In this document: piece after piece, positions 6,525-22,040 of the stretch
How the letters are laid out: each line of letters starts with the position of its first letter
Numbering within the stretch: position 1 is the first letter of the stretch
DNA from: Deltaproteobacteria bacterium RIFOXYA12_FULL_61_11
GTDB taxonomy: Bacteria; Bdellovibrionota_F; JAHFAK01; YA12-FULL-61-11
NCBI GenBank assembly: GCA_001799195.1
Contig: MGSU01000340.1
Span: forward strand, 1 to 22,040
Reading direction: 5' to 3'
Length of the DNA: 22,040 bases
The notes under the pieces: model-generated
The model's database searches: none
What the model was told of the DNA's origin: nothing
What the model saw: the letters and a program-made list of their open reading frames with translations, nothing else
Position numbers and translations under genes: made by a program

Positions 6525-7498
6525 CATTGCCTCCTTCTCTCTTCGAGGAACGTGGCCAAATCTGAGGGAAATTCTGTGCGAAGGGTAATGCGCCGTCCCA
6601 GAACCGGATGGTAGAGGGTCAATTCATGGGCATGTAATAATTGGCGAGCGGTTCGCAGTCCGCTCTCGCCGAGATCCAGGGTCCTGCCTTCGTAATGATC
6701 GAGGAAGAGCGCTTGGTCCGGCCCGTAGAGCTTGTCGCCGACGACTGGGTGGCCGAGATGGGCCAAGTGAACTCGGATCTGGTGCTGCCTACCGGTGACA
6801 GGGTGCACGCGTAGGAGGGTGTGAGTGGCAAGTCGTTCCACGACCTCGTAGTCGGTTCGCGAAGGCAAACCCTGATTGGTCACGGTTTTCCGAATGAATA
6901 CCTCAGAATCCTCGTCTTCTCCGATGGGGGCGTCGATGACGCCTCTGTCGGTAGGAACAACACCTTCGACGATGGCGAGATAGGTCTTTTTGACCCAGCG
7001 CTTGACCCATTGCATTGCTAAGTGGTTGTGCCATCGAAGATCCTTGGATACGACTAAAATACCGCTGGTTTCGCAGTCAAGACGATGCAACAGCCTGACT
7101 CTTTCGCGATCACCGTGACCGCGCGTACCGTGATAATGGATATTGAGAGCGTCGATGAGGTTGACCTCGAGGTGTCGTTTGGTCGGATGTACGGAGAGGT
7201 TGGCGGGTTTGTCCACGGCCACGAGCAGGGGATCTTCGTAAATGAAACGTACTCCGAGGTCTTTAACCTCTGGCGGAGGGAGGATCGGCCCCTCGGTCCA
7301 ACGGGCCAGGATGTGTGCTCCGGCATGCAACCGAGTGGCCGGTTTGACCCGCGGATGGCCGTCGATGTCTATCCTGCCCTCGCGGATGAGGTTCTGGGCC
7401 TGGTTACGTGAGAGCCAGCGAACCTGTCGGCAGAGGAAATCATCGAGCCTCGAGTGGTCTTCTCGCGGTGGAACCTTGAACTGGTTCGAGGTGCTCAT
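6524..7498 (-). CDS. RluA-family pseudouridine synthase
   Basis: This 324-residue enzyme converts uridine to pseudouridine in RNA, probably rRNA. Residues 15-65 form an S4 RNA-binding domain (RLDDFLCRQVRWLSRNQAQNLI, then EGRIDIDG). The catalytic motif HRLDCETSGILVVSK places the nucleophile at Asp141. The late block GRQHQIRVHLAHLGHPVVGD is typical of RluA, RluC and RluD, but the exact target site cannot be read from sequence. The ATG at 7498 overlaps the stop of the upstream zinc-ribbon gene by four bases (ATGA), which indicates translational coupling. An in-frame ATG at 7543 would add 15 residues and run into that gene. The stop overlaps the start of the DHp-like mini-gene. Confidence 0.92.
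   Translation of the reverse strand: MSTSNQFKVPPREDHSRLDDFLCRQVRWLSRNQAQNLIREGRIDIDGHPRVKPATRLHAGAHILARWTEGPILPPPEVKDLGVRFIYEDPLLVAVDKPANLSVHPTKRHLEVNLIDALNIHYHGTRGHGDRERVRLLHRLDCETSGILVVSKDLRWHNHLAMQWVKRWVKKTYLAIVEGVVPTDRGVIDAPIGEDEDSEVFIRKTVTNQGLPSRTDYEVVERLATHTLLRVHPVTGRQHQIRVHLAHLGHPVVGDKLYGPDQALFLDHYEGRTLDLGESGLRTARQLLHAHELTLYHPVLGRRITLRTEFPSDLATFLEERRRQ
6530..6535 (-). promoter_or_regulatory. Strong Shine-Dalgarno for the DHp-like mini-gene
   Basis: AGGAGG on the minus strand, inside the last codons of the pseudouridine synthase gene. It supports independent, efficient translation of the small downstream gene. Confidence 0.7.
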
Positions 7499-8466
7499 AG
7501 TTGGCGGGAGAGCATCTCGATCTTCTTGAGCACTTGTTTCCATTCGGTGCTGTTGACCTCGAGACGGCCGAGATAGTGCTTGTACTCCTCAACCGCTTTA
7601 TAGAGGTCGCCCTTGCGTTCGTAGACAGTTGCCAATTCGCGATGGGCTTCAGCAGTATCCCGCCGGTAGAGCAGGCGCTTGTATTCGAGTTCTGCCATTT
7701 CCAAGGCGGAGAAACCTTCGAGGAAGACTTTCCCGGTCAAGAGCAACACTTCGGGACGATCATTATCGAGCTGGTTGGCCTCTTCGAGCGAGGCCAGGGC
7801 CTCGACCCAGTTCCCTTGGCGGATGAGTTGCTCGGCATCGAACAAGCGGCGTTCGAACTGTCGCCGTTGAGGTTCTTTCTCGCTGTTCTCGGCTTGCTTA
7901 CCTTCCAGAGGGGAGACTTCGACCCTGGTTATTGGGGATGGCGAGTCCCATCGTTCTTGCACCCACCGATACCCCAGCACTCCAACCGCAGAACACAGGA
8001 GAAAGAGGAAGGCGCTACCGAACCACCATTTCCAAGAAGTCGTGGGTTCTTGTTGGTTGGCCTTACGCAGGGATTTCTTGACCGTAGGATCCAGGTCGTC
8101 GTCGATCGCCTCCTTCCGTCGATGAGGTCGAACTGCGCGGGCCAGCGCCGCCTGGGCGATCTTGACCGTTTTGTCTTCCTCTCCACCAGGCTGGGTCGGT
8201 TCGCATATGGCGAAATCAGCACTAGGGTCGTCGCTCGAGGGCAGGATCGACATGGAGCGGGTTTCGGCCCGTTTGGGTTTGAACCCACCGGTGTTCTTCC
8301 TCTTGAAGGCTGGATTGGTATATTCGAAGAAGGCGTCTTGGGGTTCGCTTGCCTTCCCTGAGGGGAGTAGTATGCCCCCACACTCGCTGCAGGCTTGTGC
8401 ATGCAACGCATCGCTGGTCTCTGGCAGTTCGAAGACCTTTTTGCATTTGCTGCAGGTGTAATCCAT
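7495..8466 (-). CDS. Zinc-ribbon, single-span membrane protein with TPR domain (323 aa)
   Basis: The N-terminus has a zinc-ribbon with Cys5, Cys8, Cys26 and Cys29 (CSKC and CSEC). A charged, probably disordered linker of about 110 residues follows. One membrane span lies at about 146-168 (WWFGSAFLFLLCSAVGVLGY). Residues 205-320 are helical repeats of TPR type (AEQLIRQGNWVEALASLEEA; AHRELATVYERKGDLYKAVEEY). Positive residues before the span suggest the zinc-ribbon is cytoplasmic and the TPRs periplasmic. Its layout copies the upstream 840-residue protein in miniature, so the pair may be paralogues or partners. It starts 5 bases after that gene's stop and overlaps the next gene by 4 bases. The function is unknown; a scaffold role is the most that the domains suggest. 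Confidence 0.88.
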   Translation of the reverse strand: MDYTCSKCKKVFELPETSDALHAQACSECGGILLPSGKASEPQDAFFEYTNPAFKRKNTGGFKPKRAETRSMSILPSSDDPSADFAICEPTQPGGEEDKTVKIAQAALARAVRPHRRKEAIDDDLDPTVKKSLRKANQQEPTTSWKWWFGSAFLFLLCSAVGVLGYRWVQERWDSPSPITRVEVSPLEGKQAENSEKEPQRRQFERRLFDAEQLIRQGNWVEALASLEEANQLDNDRPEVLLLTGKVFLEGFSALEMAELEYKRLLYRRDTAEAHRELATVYERKGDLYKAVEEYKHYLGRLEVNSTEWKQVLKKIEMLSRQL

Positions 8467-8471
8467 TGTGT

Positions 8472-10994
8472 TTATTGTGACAATTCGTTGATATACTCGG
8501 TAATTACCGAGAGGTCCGAGGCTTCTGGTTTCAACTCCAGGTATTTCTGTAAGTTTTCCACCGCCTTGTCCTTCTCCCCGACCTTGCCGTAGATGAAGCC
8601 CAACTGTTTGTAAGCCGATGCGTACTTCCGGTCAAGATCGATAGCCTTGTTCAGTTCGAAAATGGCTGCGTCGGATTGGTAGAGAAGATCGAGGGTCTCT
8701 GCCAATTTGAAGTGATAGAGGGGGTTGTTCGGTTCAGCTTTGAGCGCTTGTTCGAAGTTGACTTTCGCTTTGGTGTAGTTGCGTTCCTCGAAGAGTTTGT
8801 TGCCCTCGAGGAAGAATTTTTTCCCTCGTGAACCTCCGGCGGGTTTGACGGGTTCGGCGCCTGTTCCCGTTTCCTGGACGGACGGTTCGTTGGTTGCCGC
8901 CTCATCCTTTGGCCGTTGGGGGCGTTGCTGTTGTGTACTCGGGCGGGGCGTGCGTCGTTCGGCCTGACGACGGTCCACGGTTCGTGCTTTCTCCTCGGTT
9001 TTTTGTTGTTGTGGTTCCATCGGTTGAACCGGTTCGGTCTCGAAGCGGGTGCGGTCTGCGCCGAGTTCGGGGTATTTCTCGACGTATGCTTGCTCGAGCG
9101 CCGTGATCTTGGTCTTGAACTCGTCCGCTTCCTCGCTCTGCTGCTGTTCGAGAGCCAGTTCGTACAACCGGCGCATTGCTTTGAGGAAGGTTGGGTCTTC
9201 GTCGAGAGCGCGAAGGTAGTTCTTGCGCGCCTTGGTCGCGTTGCCTCCCTTTGCCGCAATCAAACCTGCGAGATGATGGAAGTCGGCTCGATCGGTCTGG
9301 GCAAGCTTGAAATAGCGTTCGTGCAGGTCCGAGGCATTCCCGAGGAATGCCTTACTCTCTTTAGAAAGGTAGTAATAGATCTCAGCACGGTAACAAGCCG
9401 GAGTTTTCTCTTTGTCGTGGATGATGTCGATGTTCTTCTTGGCAGCGTTGAGCAAATGAGGGTTGTTCGCCGAATAGCCCCACACTGCTTTATTCTCCGC
9501 ATCGGCACAACGGATCAACCCCAGCATGGGGTTGCGGGCAAGCCCTTTCATGAAGCGAAACTCGGCCATCTTGTAGGCGATAGGGGTATCGAACAGGAAG
9601 AGATAGCGTCCCTCGAGGTATTCTTCGCTGAGCAGCGCCGGAGACATCGGCTGTTCCGAGCTTTCTGCCTGTTGAGTCGGAGGTACGCCGCCGCCTGCTA
9701 GGAGCATCAGTTGTTGCAGAAAAGCCCGATGGGTATAGGCTTGAAAAGCGAGATAGCCGAGAATGAAGAGGAAGGAGAGCTTCGCGAAGAAGCCGACCAG
9801 GGAACTCCGGCCTTTGAGTTGGCGTTTGAGTTCACGGCCCTGGAGCAGTCGCTCGGAAACGGGTTCGTTCACTTCTTGGATAGGGGCCTTGACCGATCGT
9901 GTGGCTGCTTTGGGTTGTGGAGGTTTGGGAGGAGGTGGTTCCGTCGGGAGCTTCGGGGGGGGCTGGACCTGGGATGCCAATACCTCTCCGCGGACTTGTC
10001 CATAGTCTTTCCGCTGGGTTTCGCGCTCTTCGAGCGGAACCATGTCGTTACGGAAGGCCGGGGGCTGTGGGACCTGTTGCGAGGCTGTTGCAGGGGGGGG
10101 AGCCACTGGGTTGGCCGAGGGGGCGCCCGCCACCTCGTAGTACCGTTGTTTGACCGTTGCGGCTTCCTCGACGTTGGCGAGACGTTGTTCTTTCGCAAAA
10201 TTGAAACCGACATCCTTCCGTGGATCGACTCCGAGCTTGGGCTCACGTCCGGCGAGTTGGCGACTGCCCGCGTCGAAGACGGGGAAATCATGATCCATGC
10301 CCACCGGGTCTCCCGAGGGTTGAAGCGTTGCACCGTCTTCCACCGTACTGACCCGGGTCTTGCCCGCATAGTCCTCGAAGTTCTCGATTGGGTTTCCGAG
10401 GGGATTGATTTGACGGGTTTTCTCTGCTTCGAAGCGATCCTCTGCACGTTCTTGGCCGGGGGCCTCATCGTGCTGGCGCTTGTAGACGGCCATTGGGTCG
10501 GCCTGAGGCTGCCCTTTGGGTTGTTGAGGGATCAGGACGTGGGTTTCCTCGAGACTGAAGGTGTCATCCTCGTCCTCGTCGTCTGCATCCTCATCTGCCC
10601 CTCCACTCTCTCCCTGTTCAGCGAATTCGTCTTCAATGTTTTCGAGGGGTTCCTCGGTCAGGGAAGAATCCTCGCCGTCGGGTTCCTCAAGGAAACCTTC
10701 ATCTTCATCGGCCCAGGGGTCGCTCGTTTCAGAAGAGTCGGAAACGGCTTCCGGCAAGCTGGTCTCGGGACCAGGATCTGAGCTTGTATCGGTATCACCT
10801 TCGGTCTCTGTCTCAGGGCCTTCTTGGTCCAAGGAGGGGAGCCACGAGGTCTTCTCCACGTCGGTTTCCGTTGTCGGGTGGGCAACGCGGAATACCTTCA
10901 GGCATTTAGGGCATTTGACATTCACACCCTGGAGGGGGATTTTATCGTCCTCGAGGACATAGGATTTCTGGCAGTTCTTGCAGACAACCTTCAT
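8472..10994 (-). CDS. MJ0042-type zinc-ribbon protein with acidic linker, membrane span and TPRs (840 aa)
   Basis: The first 36 residues are a textbook MJ0042-type zinc-ribbon: MKVVCKNC, then VKCPKCLKVFRV, with Cys5, 8, 28 and 31. Residues 45-150 are strongly acidic, and 290-375 are rich in Pro and Gln, so about 350 residues are probably disordered. KTRQI and GKTRV segments within the linker could be phosphorylation or docking sites, but this is a guess. A membrane span lies at about 398-420 (LVGFFAKLSFLFILGYLAFQ), preceded by basic residues, which suggests the N-terminus is inside. The outer part has helical repeats around 560-640 and at least three clear TPRs in the last 120 residues (GNKLFEERNYTKAKVNFEQA; AIFELNKAIDLD; VENLQKYLELKP). 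Proteins of this type are frequent in Myxococcota, some with roles in gliding or polarity. I cannot assign one here. Confidence 0.88.
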   Translation of the reverse strand: MKVVCKNCQKSYVLEDDKIPLQGVNVKCPKCLKVFRVAHPTTETDVEKTSWLPSLDQEGPETETEGDTDTSSDPGPETSLPEAVSDSSETSDPWADEDEGFLEEPDGEDSSLTEEPLENIEDEFAEQGESGGADEDADDEDEDDTFSLEETHVLIPQQPKGQPQADPMAVYKRQHDEAPGQERAEDRFEAEKTRQINPLGNPIENFEDYAGKTRVSTVEDGATLQPSGDPVGMDHDFPVFDAGSRQLAGREPKLGVDPRKDVGFNFAKEQRLANVEEAATVKQRYYEVAGAPSANPVAPPPATASQQVPQPPAFRNDMVPLEERETQRKDYGQVRGEVLASQVQPPPKLPTEPPPPKPPQPKAATRSVKAPIQEVNEPVSERLLQGRELKRQLKGRSSLVGFFAKLSFLFILGYLAFQAYTHRAFLQQLMLLAGGGVPPTQQAESSEQPMSPALLSEEYLEGRYLFLFDTPIAYKMAEFRFMKGLARNPMLGLIRCADAENKAVWGYSANNPHLLNAAKKNIDIIHDKEKTPACYRAEIYYYLSKESKAFLGNASDLHERYFKLAQTDRADFHHLAGLIAAKGGNATKARKNYLRALDEDPTFLKAMRRLYELALEQQQSEEADEFKTKITALEQAYVEKYPELGADRTRFETEPVQPMEPQQQKTEEKARTVDRRQAERRTPRPSTQQQRPQRPKDEAATNEPSVQETGTGAEPVKPAGGSRGKKFFLEGNKLFEERNYTKAKVNFEQALKAEPNNPLYHFKLAETLDLLYQSDAAIFELNKAIDLDRKYASAYKQLGFIYGKVGEKDKAVENLQKYLELKPEASDLSVITEYINELSQ

Positions 10995-18637: not shown

Positions 18638-19483
18638 TCAGTCGCAGGAGTGTTCAGCGATGAAGGTCGAGGGAGCGACGTAGTACTGCCGTATCTTGGC
18701 CGCGTCCCAGCCTTTTGTCCAGGCTCCCGCGGTTTGGTATTGGGTACGCACCTCGAAGTGCAGGTGTTCTGCAAAAGAACAGCCGCTGGTTAAGGCCCCC
18801 GAACATCCTGTCCTGCCGATGCGTTGGCCGCGGGAGACCTTCTCCCCCTTGTTCACCTCATAGGCATCCAGGTGGGCGTGCAGGGACCAGACCTTGGTTC
18901 CGTTCGAGAGCTGGTGTTCCAGATAGATGACATTGCCGTACGACGAATACCCCCCTCCTACGAGCAACATCCTCGTCGCCTCGAGTACTGTGCCGTCGGC
19001 AATGGCGAAGAGCGGGGTCCCCTTGGGCACGCCGAGGTCTTCGCCCGGGTGGTATTGTCCCAGGGAAGTCGCCATCTCCCCGCTGTACTGCGCAAGGAAA
19101 CCGAAGGTAATCCGATAGTCGGTGAGCGGCAAGGAGAAGCAGTCGGGATTGTCGACGACGGGGGCTTCTTCTTCGGGTTGCGGTTCGGGTTGCTCCGGCA
19201 GAGGGTCGAGCGGTGGTTCGACCGGCACCGGGTTGACCACCGGGGGGCGTTCCGGTTCTCCCGGGAGCAAGGAAGGATCCGGGGGCGGTTGTTCTGCCGA
19301 GGGCACGGGTACGGCAAGACCCTGACGTTGATCGTAATAGGTCCCCTGGGGTTGGTTCTGTTGCCACTCTTCCCCGGTCGAGACCGGTGGAGCGCACGTT
19401 GGCAGGATGAGAGCGAGCAAGAGCAGAGCGAAGGGGGCACCAGGCAGCTTCGGAGGTACAAGTCGGGGGCTACATACGCTCAT
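18638..19483 (-). CDS. M23-family (LytM-like) peptidase, probable lipoprotein
   Basis: From the ATG at 19483 the product has 281 residues. A basic N-terminus and the core FALLLLALILPTC suggest a lipoprotein with Cys30. The lipobox LPTC is non-standard at the -2 and -1 positions. About 95 residues of Pro/Glu-rich spacer (PEQPEPQPEEEAP) follow, suited to crossing the periplasm. The catalytic domain has HPGEDLGVPKGTPLFAIADG (His145, Asp149), SLHAHLD (His204) and HLHFEV (His240, His242). These are all the zinc and catalytic residues of LytM, so it is probably an active peptidoglycan endopeptidase. A GTG at 19555 in the same frame overlaps the upstream stop (GTGA) and would add 24 residues. The ATG gives the better signal peptide, though the overlap suggests coupling. 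Confidence 0.88.
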   Translation of the reverse strand: MSVCSPRLVPPKLPGAPFALLLLALILPTCAPPVSTGEEWQQNQPQGTYYDQRQGLAVPVPSAEQPPPDPSLLPGEPERPPVVNPVPVEPPLDPLPEQPEPQPEEEAPVVDNPDCFSLPLTDYRITFGFLAQYSGEMATSLGQYHPGEDLGVPKGTPLFAIADGTVLEATRMLLVGGGYSSYGNVIYLEHQLSNGTKVWSLHAHLDAYEVNKGEKVSRGQRIGRTGCSGALTSGCSFAEHLHFEVRTQYQTAGAWTKGWDAAKIRQYYVAPSTFIAEHSCD

Positions 19484-19551: not shown

Positions 19552-20868
19552 TCACGGTTCTTGGCAGCGTCCGGCTGCGGGCTCAGGCAGGAGGGCGCAG
19601 CGTGACCGGCGGATACTTTCTTCTGGATACGAGATACGGAGGGCTTGGATCAGGCGTTCGAGGCAGAGTTCGGTCTGCTCGGGGAACTCGGCGCACTTGT
19701 CCAAACACCGGGAAGGAGTTTGCGTCCGGTCTATGAAGAAGAGGTCGAAATACCGCGTCAGACACGTCACACGGTGCTCGGGGGGGAAGTGGGCACAGCC
19801 GGCCGGGAGAAAACGGCGGGGGTAATAGTGCTCGGCCATGCCCTGGTAACATGGCCGGACGTAGGGGGCGGCAAGGCCGGCACAGGTGTTGAAGTCGTCG
19901 AAGACGGCCAGGTCCTGGCCATAGGCCAGGGCCGCGCCCTCGTTACAGGCAAGCTGGTCGGTGGGGGCGAGTTTTCCCGGACAGAAAGGCTCGAAACGCG
20001 CGGTATCCCGATCGTGAGCTTTGAACCAGATCCACCCAAGTCTATGAAAACATTTATGACGATGGTTAGGGAAGGGGATTCTCGAACAGAAGGCCTGGCC
20101 AGCACCCTTTTCCTGGAGCGTGAACAGGAGGTGGTCGAAACACTGATAATTCCGGGCCCTGGTCGAGCGGTGGCACAGTTCGATCAAGCGGTCGAAGTTC
20201 TCCTCGGTCGTCCGAGTGGACAATTCGTCGGCGAGCGTGAACCAGCACTCGGAACGGTATTCAGGGATGGACATGGCCTCGCACAGGGTTTCGATGACGG
20301 TCTGGGTTGACGAAAAAGCATCGACGAGCCGTAGCGAATGGGCGATGACGAGGTAGTAGAGGCATTCGTCCACCTCGTCCAGGCTTGTGGCTCGACGGCA
20401 AAGCAGGACGGCTCGGTCTTCGGACGAGACGGTAGCATGGCTCGCCTCGAGGTAGCGGTACAGCCGTTGGTCGAAGCCGTGAGGATCTTTCTGCTCGGAA
20501 CCCGGAGGTGGGAAGTGCGACATGCTCTCCCGGCGGGAGAGGAACTGCCGCATGTGCGGACGCCATGTGATGCGGTCACACAGCTTGAGAAGGTAGGGAT
20601 TGGCGATCGCCGGGCAAGGACTATGATCGTACTGCGCCTTCGGATGGCGTTCGGCGTTGGCAAACGCACTGAAATAACAACTGTCGCGGCCTAGTGGGGT
20701 GGCTTCGAATTCGCAGCCCTTGCGCCCACTGGAGCCTGAGGGCTGCCGCAGGGTAGGTTCCCCTAATCGCCATTGCATGAGAGCAAATGAAAGGAGGAGT
20801 ATGCCGACCAGAATAATGAGGTAGATCAAAGGACGAAGGCGGTTGGAACGATCGGAAGTGCATGCCAT
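19552..20868 (-). CDS. Membrane-anchored protein with eleven cysteine-pair repeats
   Basis: From the ATG at 20868 the product has 438 residues. A short basic cytoplasmic end is followed by one span (LIYLIILVGILLLSFALMQW). The remaining 385 or so residues, presumably periplasmic, hold 23 cysteines. Twenty-two of them form eleven pairs of the form C-x(9-11)-C, mostly 10 or 11 residues apart, for example CRRATSLDEVDEC, CEAMSIPEYRSEC, CSRIPFPNHRHKC and CPGKLAPTDQLAC. The second Cys is usually followed by an aromatic or hydrophobic residue and a helix-like stretch. This suggests a rod of helical repeats, each locked by a disulfide. No enzyme motif is seen. A TTG at 20934 would lengthen the N-terminus by 22 residues; neither start has a good Shine-Dalgarno. 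The stop overlaps a possible GTG start of the M23 gene. The function is unknown; an oxidising periplasm is implied. Confidence 0.82.
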   Translation of the reverse strand: MACTSDRSNRLRPLIYLIILVGILLLSFALMQWRLGEPTLRQPSGSSGRKGCEFEATPLGRDSCYFSAFANAERHPKAQYDHSPCPAIANPYLLKLCDRITWRPHMRQFLSRRESMSHFPPPGSEQKDPHGFDQRLYRYLEASHATVSSEDRAVLLCRRATSLDEVDECLYYLVIAHSLRLVDAFSSTQTVIETLCEAMSIPEYRSECWFTLADELSTRTTEENFDRLIELCHRSTRARNYQCFDHLLFTLQEKGAGQAFCSRIPFPNHRHKCFHRLGWIWFKAHDRDTARFEPFCPGKLAPTDQLACNEGAALAYGQDLAVFDDFNTCAGLAAPYVRPCYQGMAEHYYPRRFLPAGCAHFPPEHRVTCLTRYFDLFFIDRTQTPSRCLDKCAEFPEQTELCLERLIQALRISYPEESIRRSRCALLPEPAAGRCQEP

Positions 20869-21006
20869 GCAGGTCGATGCTCGGGGACGTACGTCGATGG
20901 TGGTACCTATGGCAGGTTTTGTGAGAGGATTCAAGTCGTGGAAAGGACTGAGCTGATGCAGTGAGGGGCACGGATCGGAGTGGTATCAGAGAGCGCTGCA
21001 CGTTCC
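20869..21006 (-). other. Spacer, or 5' end of the cysteine-pair gene
   Basis: These 138 bases lie between two minus-strand genes. If the TTG at 20934 is used, part is coding. I see no hairpin terminator or clear promoter. Confidence 0.3.
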
Positions 21007-22040
21007 TCAATCGCAGGTCGAGACTACCTCACGCGCCGGTTGGAGTTCTGAGGCGTAGACGAAGAGGTCGGCATCGGGATCGGAGCCTGGTAGGCCTGTA
21101 CGGGCGATGTGGGCAATGCCGCCGTAGATGCCGGGAACGTAGTAGCAGTGGCCCTCGTAGTAGACCAGGTCGTTGTCGGCGAACCGGCGCGGTTTCCCAT
21201 CATGGTTGGGTAACAGGGCACGGTAGGGGAAGAAGGCGCCGCCCTCGAGCTCGAACTCGGAGATCCTCTGGCCATAAGCTGGTTCGACCAAAGCGCCTGT
21301 CGCTGTAAGGTCGCGGATCAGACCGAGATCGGGGCGGCAGGTGAGCGGATTGATAAAGAGAACATAGTTCGGCGCCTCTCCGGCGAAATCATCTGCTGCC
21401 AGGCCCTCGCTGAAAACCTCCACCTCACAATCCTCGAGCAGGGTTTCAATGTACTCGGCCGGTTGGTGCGGCATCACCTCTCCGCTGGCCTCGCTGTATG
21501 GCTGCAACTGTGAGAGATAGACCCATTCGAGGGAATGTTGCTCGCCGGTGCTGTAGGTAGCGCCCGTTCCGCGGTAACTAGCGTAGCCACTGAGCAAGGC
21601 GGCTCCGCCGTTGATATCGCTGATCATGTAAGTGCCGTCGTCGTAGAAGACGACGTCACTGTCGGCATAGTCGAAGCGCGGCAGACCGTCGTCGATGGCC
21701 CGCAGTGCGTAGTGCGGAATCTCGCGCTCGAGGTAGGTGTAGCCGTAGTGCATGCCCACGGTCGCGGTGGTATCGCCGAGCGCAAGGATGCGCCCGGGGA
21801 GGAAACGGCACCGCTCGGGGTCGAGCGCTAGGGCATAGCCCAGACGATGTTCTTCCTGGGTCCAGGAGTTTTCGAGGACCACGAGAGAATGGTAGAAATC
21901 GAGGTTGTTCCGGTCGAGCAGGTCTTCGCCGCACTGGGTGAAGATATGGTCGCGGATCGGTTCGATCTTCTCGTAACAACGCGGTCCGTTGGCGCCCATG
22001 AGGGTCAGGGACATGCTCAGACTCAGGGCCAGGCCGAAGC
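21007..22040 (-). CDS. Secreted protein with an internally duplicated beta-rich domain, 5' end beyond the window
   Basis: The frame runs to the right edge. Just before the internal Met at 22014 it reads FGLALSLS, so the visible start is the core of a signal peptide whose ATG lies outside. The mature part is of unknown family. It contains two similar segments of about 85-95 residues. One (about 21783-21490) has IPHYALRAIDDGLPRF, YADSDVVFYDDG, INGGAALLSGY and VYLSQLQPYSE. The other (about 21276-21025) has FPYRALLPNHDGKPRRF, ADNDLVYYEGH, IYGGIAHIARTG and VYASELQPARE. The short-strand pattern closing with VYxSxLQP is reminiscent of SH3-like or Tudor-like barrels, which is an inference. Several cysteines suggest disulfides. 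It lies upstream of the cysteine-pair and M23 genes on the same strand, so all three probably act in the envelope. Confidence 0.8.
   Translation of the reverse strand, partial: FGLALSLSMSLTLMGANGPRCYEKIEPIRDHIFTQCGEDLLDRNNLDFYHSLVVLENSWTQEEHRLGYALALDPERCRFLPGRILALGDTTATVGMHYGYTYLEREIPHYALRAIDDGLPRFDYADSDVVFYDDGTYMISDINGGAALLSGYASYRGTGATYSTGEQHSLEWVYLSQLQPYSEASGEVMPHQPAEYIETLLEDCEVEVFSEGLAADDFAGEAPNYVLFINPLTCRPDLGLIRDLTATGALVEPAYGQRISEFELEGGAFFPYRALLPNHDGKPRRFADNDLVYYEGHCYYVPGIYGGIAHIARTGLPGSDPDADLFVYASELQPAREVVSTCD
21025..21276 (-). repeat. Protein-level repeat, second copy of the duplicated domain
   Basis: Encodes the C-terminal copy, with PYRALLPNHDGKPRRF, NDLVYYEG, YGGIAHIA and VYASELQPARE. 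The resemblance to 21490-21783 is at amino-acid level and too diverged to be obvious in DNA. Confidence 0.65.
21490..21783 (-). repeat. Protein-level repeat, first copy of the duplicated domain
   Basis: Encodes the N-terminal copy, with PHYALRAIDDGLPRF, SDVVFYDDG, NGGAALLSG and VYLSQLQPYSE, in the same order and with similar spacing as the second copy. Confidence 0.65.

Follow-up and report, generated by a model that had tools for sequence, protein, structure and literature searches.

The window, 22,040 nucleotides in length (G000:C340:1-22040), belongs to a source genome of 4.6 Mb in 342 contigs that is 87% complete. Its assembly contains no 16S rRNA. On its minus strand, an open reading frame at 19552-20934 with a TTG start encodes a 460-residue protein with a repeated pattern of cysteine pairs. 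The ATG at 20868 is the likelier start, judging from comparison with the paralogs p2-p4 of the same genome, and would give a protein of 438 residues. No clear Shine-Dalgarno sequence is seen at this ATG. The features of the locus are as follows.

18638..19483, minus strand: downstream gene, M23 peptidase lipoprotein with a Pro-rich linker (PF01551, E 2.7e-20; 281 aa from ATG)
19552..20868, minus strand: likely coding region of the cysteine-pair repeat membrane protein (ATG start, 438 aa; paralog comparison)
19564..20715, minus strand: ectodomain with eleven C-x(9-11)-C pairs, a predicted alpha-solenoid (cysteine spacing and AlphaFold models)
20224..20253, minus strand: conserved SECWFTLADE motif, spanning the second Cys of pair 4 and the beginning of the helix that follows (paralog alignment)
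20551..20580, minus strand: conserved CDRITWRPHM motif directly after pair 2 (C-x-R-x3-RPHM invariant in all four copies)
20776..20832, minus strand: single N-terminal transmembrane helix, PLIYLIILVGILLLSFALM (from the sequence; helix 11-35 of the model)
21007..22038, minus strand: upstream gene for a secreted-looking protein, running to the contig end or nearly so (no Pfam or NCBIfam match)

In the predicted structure the transmembrane helix has a block pLDDT of about 90 over model residues 11-35. It is preceded by three basic residues. Under the positive-inside rule, basic residues ahead of a transmembrane helix keep the N-terminus in the cytoplasm, and the protein should therefore be oriented N-in/C-out, with its repeats outside the cytoplasm and presumably in the periplasm. 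Elsewhere in the window (7495-10994), two adjacent minus-strand proteins each possess an N-terminal zinc ribbon followed by TPR repeats.

The adjoining M23 peptidase gene

The M23 reading frame is open to a GTG at 19555, and the 4-nt overlap with the cysteine-pair gene (GTGA, 19555-19552) exists only with this GTG start. Read from ATG 19483, 68 nt downstream of the cysteine-pair gene, the M23 protein has a short lipoprotein signal (LLLALILPTC), and this ATG is probably the true start. An extended -10-like element, TGGTATACT, is visible by eye just upstream of it and is unlisted in the consensus scan. Because the scan lists neither a minus-strand promoter nor a terminator in the region of the two genes, a shared transcript and separate transcripts are both possible. 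The earlier note described the protein as translated just before the M23 peptidase. That description depends on the doubtful GTG start.

From this adjacency it was proposed that the protein could be a scaffold or activator of the peptidase and so act directly in the remodelling of peptidoglycan. The two genes are at most 68 nt apart on the same strand, the scan found no terminator between them, and the peptidase, a lipoprotein of the envelope, has H..D, HAH, and HLH motifs. However, the genes close to the three paralogs in the source genome include those for HDOD, DegT aminotransferase/FAD oxidoreductase, and TonB-receptor proteins, and no M23 gene occurs among the tested neighbours of any of the three. 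The conserved M23 neighbourhood is thus not observed, and relatives in two other phyla also have no M23 gene in about 1 kb of flank inspected by eye. The M23 gene has its own ATG and lipoprotein signal, and possibly its own promoter at the -10-like element. A scaffold or activator role is unlikely on these grounds, and a functional link between the two proteins is possible but unsupported. No conserved gene neighbour, partner, or substrate was found for the protein.

The cysteine grid, its paralogs, and distant relatives

The 460-residue product contains 25 cysteines, and 22 of these are arranged in eleven C-x9..11-C pairs. Pairs 1-6 are located at residues 74-86, 107-119, 179-191, 218-230, 254-265, and 283-295, and pairs 7-11 at 318-330, 351-362, 380-391, 414-424, and 446-457 (460-residue numbering). 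Between partners there are 9-11 residues, with x9 in one pair only. The eleven-fold pairing reported in the earlier note is borne out, to which three further cysteines are added: the unpaired C410, and C22 and C25 ahead of the transmembrane helix. When the cysteines are taken in strict order, so that the pairing is not chosen, 9 of 11 successive pairs have a spacing of 9-12 residues. When as many cysteines were placed at random, the maximum was 8 of 11, reached once in 200,000 trials. The spacing is far beyond chance. The regularity is one of pair spacing and not of repeat length, which varies from 29 to 39 residues with one gap of 72. This gap is the site of a pair that is found in two paralogs and is missing from the window protein.

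The three paralogs are encoded at C158:4332-5666 (40% identity), C336:28103-29524 (30%), and C342:6541-7989 (21%; p4). All four copies possess one N-terminal transmembrane helix, the same aligned cysteine grid, the C-x-R-x3-RPHM motif, and a SEC-[WY]-[FY]-x-LADE motif, the features that mark membership of the family in this lineage. The p4 reading frame (L011 6538-8028) has a third-position GC of 0.40, compared with 0.64-0.85 for the other listed reading frames of its contig, and p4 was perhaps acquired or wrongly binned. A match of PF16700 to p4 (E 0.028) fell below the cut-off and was taken as chance.

Cysteines are lost in pairs. Counted from the printed alignment columns, 12 aligned pair sites in four sequences have both cysteines 43 times, none 4 times, and a single one once; the pair found only in p3 is excluded, and pair 7 of p4, where the loop length is ambiguous, is tallied as present. 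The window protein and p3 have each lost two cysteines, both of one pair (random-loss probability about 0.044 in each case). p4 has lost five, including two whole pairs (about 0.03), and has one half-lost pair, odd extra cysteines, and longer loops in the best alignment. Given the small counts and the relatedness of the sequences, these probabilities are support rather than proof. Since cysteines are lost almost always as whole pairs, disulfides within each C-x10-C unit are favoured over disulfides between units.

The repeats belong to no family that could be named, as the earlier note supposed. The window protein has no match in Pfam or NCBIfam, with none in Pfam even at E 10, and a profile of the family has no match among PDB sequences. 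No close relatives were found in the viral contigs, plasmids, or genome contigs searched, and the family is absent from the other genome compared of the same phylum (two genomes in all). The proposed search with a single-repeat profile recovered the four proteins of the source genome and nothing else among 145 genomes. Among the titles and abstracts listed in literature searches, no family of bacterial CX10C/CX11C repeats matched. Supposed archaeal C-x10-C repeats were tried as relatives with a synthetic consensus query, and this had no match in genome contigs; they were set aside for that reason.

The profile of the whole family reaches further. Two overlapping samples, of 290 and 385 genomes and mostly from other phyla, gave matches in two additional genomes (G181 and G061), which belong to two other phyla. 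The G181 relative (L013 1570-2397) is a transmembrane protein with 14 cysteines in seven x9-11 pairs, and such a protein is found in none of six other genomes of that phylum. By eye, its gene is close to one for a secreted MsrB-like methionine sulfoxide reductase.

The G061 protein (L012 919-2229) matched with an E of 5.6e-8 per genome. Its phylum is probably Gemmatimonadota, because the protein matches one of Gemmatirosa kalamazoonensis. The G061-type family is present in 39 of 150 genomes of this phylum and has no Pfam family. Like the window protein, its members have an N-terminal transmembrane helix and cysteine pairs, here nine and mostly x10-11; unlike it, they have extra H-x-YAH and C-x-HG-x-GHG motifs and some pairs of x7 or x15. 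Twelve reading frames were extracted (L044-L055), several truncated, missing, or wrong ones not being counted, and in the full-length copies aligned the 18 main cysteines form nine conserved pairs. The histidine motifs are conserved as well and may be a metal or heme site.

These motifs are part of the case for a COA7-like redox or cofactor protein, in which the cysteines or the RPHM histidine would act in thiol exchange or bind heme or a metal and the shape would be secondary. The strict cysteine content, the RPHM histidine that is invariant in four copies, and the DsbA/VKOR proteins encoded in the source genome are also in its favour. However, the pairs do not have CxxC-type catalytic spacing, some of them are lost whole, and the RPHM motif loses its invariance when the G181 relative joins the alignment. 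A role of this kind is improbable.

Predicted helices and known disulfide-stapled proteins

AlphaFold models were made from the single sequence for the whole protein (mean pLDDT 56.5, pTM 0.43) and for residues 150-438 (mean pLDDT 68.3, pTM 0.55). With moderate confidence, both predict successive helices arranged as alpha-hairpins. Nine pairs were examined in the ectodomain model. In eight of them the first Cys lies no more than 3 residues from a helix end, and in the ninth it is in coil; in seven, the second Cys occupies position 7 of the helix that follows. By helix position all nine pairs tested are in register, compared with 0-5 when they are shifted by at least 3 residues along the model. 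Both models place a turn between the partners, where P, D, or N is often found. The second Cys is in a helix in all nine pairs, as expected from the helix-like stretch that the earlier note placed after each pair. Its disulfide-stapled helical rod fits the helix layout at the cysteines, and the pairing itself is suggested by sequence and by models of moderate confidence.

Fold searches matched only generic alpha-solenoids (retromer VPS35, LGN TPR, Ton1535, LapB, and HEAT proteins). The best match has a Z of 8.7, a value that, like lower ones, is common for helical repeats according to the search tool and may reflect a common arrangement only, and there is no Foldseek E below 0.001. The TPR alpha-solenoids (LGN TPR, Ton1535, and the LapB cytoplasmic domain) match the model with Z 7.0-7.9. 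The window protein differs from them in that its sequence has no TPR signal, and in its disulfide grid, which they do not have. Against the 34-residue TPR consensus, no TPR model matched the cysteine protein, whereas two other proteins of the window did match.

HcpB and HcpC of Helicobacter are secreted, Sel1-like proteins made of tandem alpha/alpha repeats. In Hcp, consecutive repeats are linked by a disulfide that runs from the end of the first to the beginning of the second (PMC3851747), and the paired cysteines have seven residues between them, C-x7-C (PMC4792463). The Hcp pairs belong to Sel1 repeats of 36 residues in which Ala/Gly are conserved; the window protein has 9-11 residues between partners, longer loops, uneven repeats, eleven pairs, a transmembrane anchor, and no Sel1 consensus. 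In the moderate-confidence models its helix layout would be compatible with an Hcp-type alpha/alpha superhelix. Human COA7 is a protein of the mitochondrial intermembrane space with five Sel1-like repeats. Its cysteines are nine or eleven residues apart and are proposed to staple helix-turn-helix repeats (PMC6505684), a spacing that resembles the window protein. COA7, however, is soluble, has 13 cysteines, and belongs to the Sel1 family. Structures of Hcp, COA7, and other Sel1 proteins are not among the fold-search matches, which excludes nothing.

None of the four cysteine proteins matched the Sel1 profile PF08238 even at E 1, though this profile matches other proteins of the same genome (C202 and C194). 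The window protein may work like Hcp and COA7 but is not filed as a Sel1 protein because this test fails. One of the Sel1 proteins of the genome, at G000:C202:7012-8085, has at least 10 repeats.

The spacing also overlaps the CX9C and CX10C motifs of twin CX9C proteins. In a CHCH-like fold, each C-x9..11-C would run along one helix and be bonded to the Cys of a neighbouring helix. The pairs instead span the turn between helices in 8 of 9 cases, the ninth starting in coil, the residues between partners are often P, D, or N, and whole-pair loss suits bonds within pairs and not bonds to neighbours; such a fold is very unlikely. Hardly to be expected either is a cytoplasmic metal-binding repeat with the transmembrane helix reversed and the cysteine pairs as thiolate ligands, for which the spare N-terminal C25 and the zinc-ribbon TPR proteins of the genome might speak, but against which stand the three basic residues that suggest N-in, the unusual ligand geometry of a second Cys inside a helix and 10-11 residues from the first, and the secreted look of the same-strand neighbours.

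A putative envelope adaptor

The source genome encodes two VKOR-DsbA fusions (L056 706-1968 and L057 1459-2688), with CPAC and CPHC sites. Periplasmic disulfide formation in this organism is therefore plausible. The inner-membrane anchor and presumably periplasmic, stapled helical repeat put forward in the earlier note are supported by the whole-pair loss, the helix ends at the cysteines, and these fusions.

On balance, the protein is likely a bitopic, periplasmic, disulfide-stapled alpha-solenoid adaptor anchored in the inner membrane. The single N-terminal helix would hold a periplasmic solenoid with some eleven helix pairs. One local disulfide per C-x(9-11)-C pair would bridge the turn between consecutive helices, from the end of the first to the beginning of the second, and would set how neighbouring repeats are angled, in the way of the Helicobacter Hcp proteins. 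The VKOR-DsbA fusions would make these bonds. By analogy, a rigid groove may bind other envelope proteins or peptides, and each of the four paralogs may serve different partners. The disulfide state, the periplasmic side, and protein binding are what we infer from these data, and an adaptor is the most likely role.

The proteins are a real, orderly family without a name and are structurally a variant of the known disulfide-stapled solenoids. A broader reading, close to an even call but leaning slightly against, is that they represent a sequence-distinct class of membrane-tethered, disulfide-stapled alpha-solenoids. This class would be independent of Sel1 and TPR, would occur in several little-studied phyla, and would have multiplied in some genomes as envelope receptors or adaptors.

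If true, the few stapled solenoids that are known would gain an unlisted repeat family, one that follows a simple rule of a single disulfide at each turn between repeats. It would offer a natural model from which scaffolds of great stability could be designed. With about eleven bonds in one protein, it would also put oxidative folding by VKOR-DsbA fusions to the test.
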